From contig JAMDAA010000013.1 in NCBI GenBank assembly GCA_023484045.1, positions 1 through 39,617 on the forward strand: 39,617 nt of DNA, in the 5' to 3' direction. This DNA is from Patescibacteria group bacterium (lineage in GTDB: Bacteria > Patescibacteriota > Microgenomatia > Levybacterales > UBA12049). Of the stretch, positions 20,581 through 21,869 are shown one piece after another. Both the position numbers and the translations under genes were made by a program. How positions within the stretch are numbered: the stretch's first letter is position 1; each line of letters starts with the position of its first letter. The notes under the pieces are model-generated. The model was given only the letters and a program-made list of their open reading frames with translations. It was not told the DNA's origin and did not search any database.

Positions 20581-20757
20581 ATGGCAAAAAAAAGCGAACA
20601 CAGAGTAACACTCGGTCTTTTCTGTTCGGTCTGTAAAAACAGAAATTATATTACTTATCGAAATAAATTAAATACAACAGAAAAACTGGTGCTGAAAAAA
20701 TATTGCAAGCATTGCAAGAAAAAGACTGATCACAAAGAAGTCGAAAAATTGAAATAA
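20581..20757 (+). CDS. rpmG: Ribosomal protein bL33
   Basis: MAKKSEHRVTLGLFCSVCKNRNYITYRNKLNTTEKLVLKKYCKHCKKKTDHKEVEKLK; SD AAAGGAGG upstream; 58 aa, below the ORF-track cutoff. Confidence 0.93.
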   Translation: MAKKSEHRVTLGLFCSVCKNRNYITYRNKLNTTEKLVLKKYCKHCKKKTDHKEVEKLK

Positions 20758-20787
20758 TTGATTGACAAAAAGATTCATATTTACTAT

Positions 20788-20813
20788 TGTATAATAAGTT
20801 AGTATATTATACA
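20788..20813. promoter_or_regulatory. 26-bp palindromic operator-like site upstream of trpR-like gene
   Basis: TGTATAATA-AGTTAGTA-TATTATACA, perfect 9-bp arms. Confidence 0.7.
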
Positions 20814-20818
20814 TTGAT

Positions 20819-21226
20819 ATGCCGCATGTTTCTCGTAATAAATTATCAAAAAAGGCCGAAGCGAAGCTTATAGACAGCTTCAATCAGGTTTTAACCCACA
20901 TAACAAGGGGTGACGAAATGGTGTCTTTCCTGGATTCCCTTTTGACTCCTACCGAAAAAATCATGCTCGCAAAAAGACTCGCAATTATTGTTTTGATTGA
21001 AGAAGGTTTACCGGATTCTCAAATTTCCAGCATCCTTAATGTAACCCGCATGACTGCTTCGAAAATGCAATTGTTTTACGAAGCGCGCGGAAGCGGGTTT
21101 AAAATCGGATTAAAGAAACTTGAGGAATTAAACAGGATGGAATCGTTTAAGAAGTTCCTGATTTCTCTCGCAAAATACTCTGTCCGCGCCGCGGGAGGCT
21201 ACGTAAAACCCGGAATTCTCGATTAA
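20819..21226 (+). CDS. TrpR-like (YerC/YecD-type) helix-turn-helix regulator
   Basis: LLTPTEKIMLAKRLAIIVLIEEGLPDSQISSILNVTRMTASKMQ matches the Trp repressor fold/HTH. Confidence 0.88.
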   Translation: MPHVSRNKLSKKAEAKLIDSFNQVLTHITRGDEMVSFLDSLLTPTEKIMLAKRLAIIVLIEEGLPDSQISSILNVTRMTASKMQLFYEARGSGFKIGLKKLEELNRMESFKKFLISLAKYSVRAAGGYVKPGILD

Positions 21227-21234
21227 CCAATCTA

Positions 21235-21260
21235 TGTATAATAAGTTAGTATATTATATA
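21235..21260. promoter_or_regulatory. Second copy of the palindromic operator-like site, between trpR-like gene and tRNA-Trp
   Basis: TGTATAATAAGTTAGTATATTATATA, 25/26 identical to 20788-20813. Confidence 0.7.
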
Positions 21261-21422
21261 TTAAGACTTATGAGAGAACATTTCAAATTTCTAGTCATGT
21301 CATTCATTCTTTTATTGCTCCCTGCCCTAATGGCCACCAAAAGGCGAAAGGATGATTCAAAGTAGCTTATCTTGCGTGCAATGTTGAGAAAATATATAAT
21401 GTTTGAGGCTAGCATCAGATCT

Positions 21423-21475
21423 GGGTCGGTAGTTAAATGGAATAAGCTAGATGTACGGGGTCCCGAAGTTCTAAG
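21423..21475 (+). pseudogene. Degenerate tRNA-Trp-like fragment
   Basis: GGGTCGGTAGTTAAATGGAATAAG resembles AGGCCAGTAGTTAAATGGTATAAC of tRNA-Trp, without a proper anticodon arm. Confidence 0.4.
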
Positions 21476-21485
21476 CAGACAACAT

Positions 21486-21559
21486 AGGCCAGTAGTTAAA
21501 TGGTATAACTGAGGTCTCCAAAACCTCTGTTGGGGGTTCGATTCCCTCCTGGCCTGCCA
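21486..21559 (+). tRNA. tRNA-Trp(CCA), CCA tail encoded
   Basis: AGGCCAG/CTGGCCT acceptor, anticodon arm GAGGT-CTCCAAA-ACCTC, T-arm GGGGGTTCGATTCCCTC. Confidence 0.94.
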
Positions 21560-21617: not shown

Positions 21618-21869
21618 GTGTATTATGTTTACATTCTTCAGAGCTTAAAAGATAAGGGACTTTACATAGGTTATACACAAGACCTCAAAAAAAGATTGAA
21701 GGAGCACCAGAGCAAGGAGTCTTTTTCGACAAAAGGAAGAGCACCATTTCTGTTAATACATTTTCAAGGATTTATGTCAAAAGAAGATGCAATTGCAACA
21801 GAAAAATATTTAAAAACAACAAGAGGTTGGGAAAGAATTCACAGAATGCTTAAGAATACACTTACATAG
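21618..21869 (+). CDS. GIY-YIG domain endonuclease (GTG start)
   Basis: YYVYILQSLKDKGLYIGYTQDLKKRLKEHQ. Confidence 0.93.
   Translation: MYYVYILQSLKDKGLYIGYTQDLKKRLKEHQSKESFSTKGRAPFLLIHFQGFMSKEDAIATEKYLKTTRGWERIHRMLKNTLT

Follow-up and report, generated by a model that had tools for sequence, protein, structure and literature searches.

The window (the whole stretch of 39,617 nucleotides that was analysed) contains a gene for a TrpR-like protein that lies between two nearly identical 26-bp palindromes, the whole cassette being situated between rpmG and a tRNA-Trp gene. The features, in order of position, are:

20581..20757, + strand: rpmG, ribosomal protein L33, to the left of the cassette (PF00471, E 2e-16; synteny in relatives)
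20762..20790, + strand: putative promoter of the TrpR-like gene, TTGACA (20762-20767), 17 bp, TATTGT (20785-20790), read from the sequence
20788..20813, no strand: upstream palindrome TGTATAATAAGTTAGTATATTATACA, predicted cognate site and likely operator
20819..21226, + strand: TrpR-like protein gene, 135 aa, six helices, TrpR fold (PF01371, AlphaFold2)
21235..21260, no strand: downstream palindrome TGTATAATAAGTTAGTATATTATATA, a direct repeat of the upstream copy, 8 bp past the stop codon
21270..21365, + strand: small putative ORF, 31 aa, with one hydrophobic stretch and a basic tail
21372..21400, + strand: putative tRNA-Trp promoter TTGCGT-17-TATAAT, read from the sequence and separate from the second palindrome
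21486..21559, + strand: tRNA-Trp(CCA), ancestral neighbour of rpmG

Upstream of the TrpR-like gene lie rpmG and a tRNA-Thr/Tyr/Thr group, and downstream of it lie the 31-aa ORF and tRNA-Trp. The two 26-mers differ only at position 25, and a search of the window allowing up to 3 mismatches returned just these two copies, compared with 0 in dinucleotide shuffles; a general excess of palindromes was looked for in the window and none was found. An earlier, sequence-only reading of this DNA had correctly placed both 26-mers with their one-base difference, the TrpR-family gene between them and their position upstream of tRNA-Trp(CCA); the perfect 9-bp arms that it described hold for the first copy, and one of these outer pairs is lost in the second. 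The predicted -10 element of the TrpR-like gene runs into the upstream palindrome and the start codon follows that palindrome by 5 bp, so the mRNA would be leaderless or nearly so. The promoter-like boxes of tRNA-Trp lie ~110 bp beyond the second palindrome. The 31-aa ORF directly after this palindrome had no match in Pfam or NCBIfam searches and could encode a small membrane peptide. Two other features adjoin tRNA-Trp: a stretch just 5' of it (21424-21480, GGTCGGTAGTTAAATGG...) that resembles a decayed copy of its 5' half and was not detected by ARAGORN or Rfam, and, just downstream (21618-21869), a gene for a stand-alone GIY-YIG domain protein of 83 aa.

The 135-aa product matches the Pfam Trp_repressor family (PF01371, E 1.5e-7, 31.8 bits against a curated cut-off of 27), and its AlphaFold2 model (pLDDT 86) has the TrpR fold, the best PDB matches being 3kor, 3frw, 3g1c and 1trr (probability 1.00, TM 0.56-0.60 by query length, E 0.08-0.12). 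Beyond the TrpR core the protein carries a C-terminal helix and tail, an extension common to the family. The tryptophan pocket of E. coli TrpR, which we take to consist of T44, R54, T81, R84, G85 and S88, is only partly preserved: T43, R53 and T79 are kept in the window protein, R84, G85 and S88 are replaced by K82, M83 and F86, and the family is variable at these positions. Domain searches of the flanked gene matched Trp_repressor and helix-turn-helix only, with no HUH/tyrosine transposase domain, and neither a conserved catalytic motif in the family nor an evident catalytic domain on the TrpR fold was seen.

TrpR-like genes (E ≤ 0.001) are present in 61 of 100 relatives, with four copies in the window's own genome (G000), eleven in G050 (the most) and none in the congener G001. 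Named carriers are Patescibacteria (Levybacteria, Nomurabacteria, Roizmanbacteria and others), and a few records are titled only 'bacterium'. The four genes of the own genome have four palindromes, each of the other three copies being flanked by its own pair. With a flank match defined as a 26-bp stretch upstream agreeing with one downstream at ≥19 positions, a matching palindrome was found on both sides of 70 of 86 TrpR-like genes from Patescibacteria, versus 10% for mismatched gene pairs, and flank identity was 0.87 for a gene's own pair versus 0.41 across genes. For asymmetric palindromes, the flanking copies form direct repeats in 41 cases versus inverted repeats in 5. Every protein clade has its own palindrome sequence, and the more alike two proteins are, the more alike their palindromes tend to be (Mantel r 0.64, a value reached in 0 of 2000 permutations). 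Among relatives, a TTGACA-like box precedes the palindrome centre by 20-24 bp at 14 upstream sites, compared with 0 downstream sites, and across the family the start codon often falls within a few bases of the upstream palindrome. The idea that the two sites keep a constant distance was dropped, since their centres are anywhere between 428 and 566 bp apart. We regard it as almost certain that the palindromes are the TrpR-like gene's own sites. Given the clade-specific pairing, the upstream copy in the promoter and the nearby start codon, the cognate protein most likely binds the palindrome and is likely to repress itself. Thus, of the earlier proposal that the regulator represses both itself and tRNA-Trp, the first half stands as likely, the upstream palindrome overlapping the promoter region, and the second is not supported. 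We found no recurring partner gene (e.g., a recombinase) beside TrpR-like genes, no relative and no palindrome in the viral contigs searched for phage carriage, and no description of a TrpR-like gene/palindrome module in a literature search.

Comparison of G000 with G001 revealed three presence/absence sites of the kind looked for in a mobile element: at the window, C9 and C32 loci the congener has neither the gene nor the palindromes, and its L33-tRNA-Trp spacer is 55 bp with no such palindrome. These empty loci rule out the idea that the palindrome is a target site left behind where the gene is missing. The indel at C9 is larger than the bracketed unit, and among the relatives compared, which are too diverged for such a comparison, neither precise excision nor insertion with a target duplication was seen at base resolution. 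The Nomurabacteria copies have the same neighbours across species, read by sequence as threonyl-tRNA synthetase and gyrase B, and both palindromes are kept; this joint retention indicates that selection probably maintains both sites there, and the synteny is as compatible with a maintained regulator as with a mobile element. Of four sites compared between the congeners G050 and G109, two occupy the same position with a different palindrome sequence that stays largely palindromic, and the other two are absent.

The palindromes also occur alone. In pattern searches, on which the solo counts for the own genome rest, a slightly loosened pattern (up to 3 mismatches) found only the two window copies in the 900-kb draft, and the looser family pattern added a related solo copy at G000:C19:959. 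Across nine genomes the family pattern (up to 3 mismatches) gave 2-21 sites per genome, cassette flanks included, versus 0-3 for the reversed control. As a rule, the solo copies that were fetched have 26-28 bp in common, with unrelated flanks and no TrpR-like gene nearby, and several agree at every one of the 26 bp, the core included. Spacers hold most of the solo copies, many of them 3-30 bp past stop codons or between tandem genes, such as those reading as gatA and gatB or tsf and frr, and not in promoters. About a dozen of some fifty are inside ORFs of >100 aa, including RsmI, MiaB, FolD, DHFR and PepQ, some of them in frame. A second, unrelated palindrome family behaves in the same way, with solo copies in G000, G051 and G055 and none in five genomes that lack that protein clade (four searched that have no close gene of this kind, and G011). 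In PepQ of G044, nine residues that are absent from solved homologues coincide exactly with the palindrome, in a loop that varies among kin, whereas the palindromes in FolD and in PepQ of G055 add no residues and leave the length unchanged relative to homologues. In-frame insertion as a general rule is weakened by these cases, and because of the unchanged lengths some intragenic sites may have arisen by substitution and not insertion. The own-genome solo loci at C19 and C13 had no alignable spacer in the congener. Several solo sites have peculiarities of their own: three different palindromes, one of them of the window family, lie abreast in one own-genome spacer (L154, G000:C19, 915-1040); solo copies in G011 (L009, L148, L181) have 60-159 bp of flanking sequence in common, either among themselves or with the downstream side of the cassette, which is longer than elsewhere; and PepQ carries two unrelated palindrome families in frame at different positions (L206 in G055, L179 in G044).

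The analysis thus observed genes bracketed by palindromes in direct orientation, palindromes specific to each protein clade, several gene copies per genome, presence/absence differences between relatives, and palindromes standing alone. Taken together, these features lead us to lean modestly toward an autoregulated TrpR-like/palindrome module that regulates itself and spreads, akin to REP elements and their REP-associated tyrosine transposases (RAYTs) without the transposase. Such a module would consist of a single gene for a TrpR-fold DNA-binding protein between two direct copies of its predicted target: the upstream copy, overlapping the promoter, would serve to repress the gene, and the downstream copy would be a retained second binding site, perhaps for looping across the gene. 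The coming and going of modules between close relatives, their multiple copies within genomes and the solo palindromes in spacers and some reading frames fit such spreading, with a TrpR-like protein in place of the transposase. In the REP/RAYT system, too, a palindrome-bracketed gene is accompanied by lineage-specific palindromes scattered mostly between genes (PMC2817692, PMC3116915), and here likewise the gene is flanked by palindromes that are also dispersed, mostly between genes, each protein lineage having its own. The differences are that the gene encodes a TrpR-fold DNA-binding protein lacking a HUH/tyrosine transposase domain, that copy number is ~2-20 and not over 100, and that some copies lie in reading frames and the palindromes are AT-rich. 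The module would thus work like REP/RAYT (PMC2817692), and we do not file it as a member because the transposase is missing. With the TrpR/YerC-like Trp_repressor family (PF01371; 3kor, 3frw, 1trr) it shares the fold, the helix-turn-helix and likely self-repression at a palindrome, and it differs in the C-terminal extension, the unconserved tryptophan pocket, the two bracketing sites and the multicopy state. Rickettsia palindromic elements are palindromic repeats of ~100-150 bp that lie in frame inside housekeeping genes. These elements, which are among the small mobile sequences reviewed in PMC2229807, resemble the palindromes found in frame in housekeeping genes here, which are unlike them in being 26-28 bp long, in lying mostly between genes and in their link to a cognate protein gene.

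The same distribution could arise if the proteins were ordinary transcription factors with dispersed regulons, repressing themselves and acting on other genes through solo sites that come and go by point mutation. This account, which we regard as possible if unlikely, is consistent with clade-specific sites that track the protein, with the shared site positions and changed yet largely palindromic sequences of G050 and G109, with the unchanged lengths of FolD and the G055 PepQ and with the syntenic Nomurabacteria copies. It does not readily explain why many solo sites lie just past stop codons or between tandem genes and not in promoters, why some are inside genes, why several are identical throughout the 26 bp, core included, or why the two flanks keep direct orientation. 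A regulatory role would yield a large set of regulator-site pairs whose DNA-binding specificity could be read straight from sequence, since every gene carries its own operator twice. We consider it doubtful that the module is outright selfish, with the TrpR-fold protein, lacking a transposase domain, driving the spread or conversion of the ~26-bp palindromes and the bracketed gene, presumably via recruited host recombination or replication; this would be a new class of element, and a protein family of which only repressors are known would have a part in the spread of DNA. A chromosome-organising protein in the manner of MatP-matS or Noc, bridging or looping dispersed palindromes, would suit their low copy number in spacers and reading frames and could use the family-wide C-terminal extension beyond the TrpR core for bridging; it is made improbable by genomes that hold several paralogues, each with a different site, and by the presence or absence of whole families between congeners. 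Whichever applies, Patescibacteria, for all their very small genomes, carry this gene family in multiple copies together with dispersed palindromes that sometimes fall within core genes.

There remains the earlier reading itself, in which a repressor responding to tryptophan uses the two palindromes to control both itself and tRNA-Trp. In its favor, 8 of 86 TrpR-like genes are followed within 900 bp by a tRNA-Trp on the same strand, which is above chance, and seven of these belong to the window's clade of 17, indicating a real positional preference of this clade for the tRNA-Trp neighborhood, either as an ancestral location or by repeated insertion; the L33-gene-tRNA-Trp order also recurs in G044. 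Most two-palindrome homologues, with their downstream palindrome, are nowhere near tRNA-Trp. The order tRNA-Thr, Tyr, Thr, L33, tRNA-Trp is an old block in relatives, and in 18 of 29 relatives fetched L33 is followed after 16-523 bp by a same-strand tRNA-Trp without a TrpR-like gene. These gene-free pairs, the 55-bp spacer of G001 and the separate promoter-like boxes of the tRNA indicate that the cassette sits inside a pre-existing L33-tRNA-Trp pair that is independent of it, and on the same grounds tRNA-Trp control was rejected as the main function. Since, in addition, the G044 gene has an in-frame TGA and pocket residues such as Gly85 and Ser88 are not conserved, we judge a tryptophan-responsive repressor of tRNA-Trp very improbable; in the self-regulating, spreading module that we prefer, the site beside tRNA-Trp would reflect location in the old spacer and not control of the tRNA. 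The idea that the cassette travels together with a particular tRNA-Trp lineage was also rejected, as cassette-adjacent tRNA-Trp genes do not group together. Separately, in G005, a genome without a TrpR-like gene, a degenerate 26-mer (TGTATAATGCATTTACGCTCTATACA, L121, 2174-2199) abuts tRNA-Trp and may be only a tRNA promoter. Finally, tRNA-Trp differs strongly between the congeners G000 (window 21486-21559) and G001 (L097), which suggests that one of the two has had its tRNA gene replaced.
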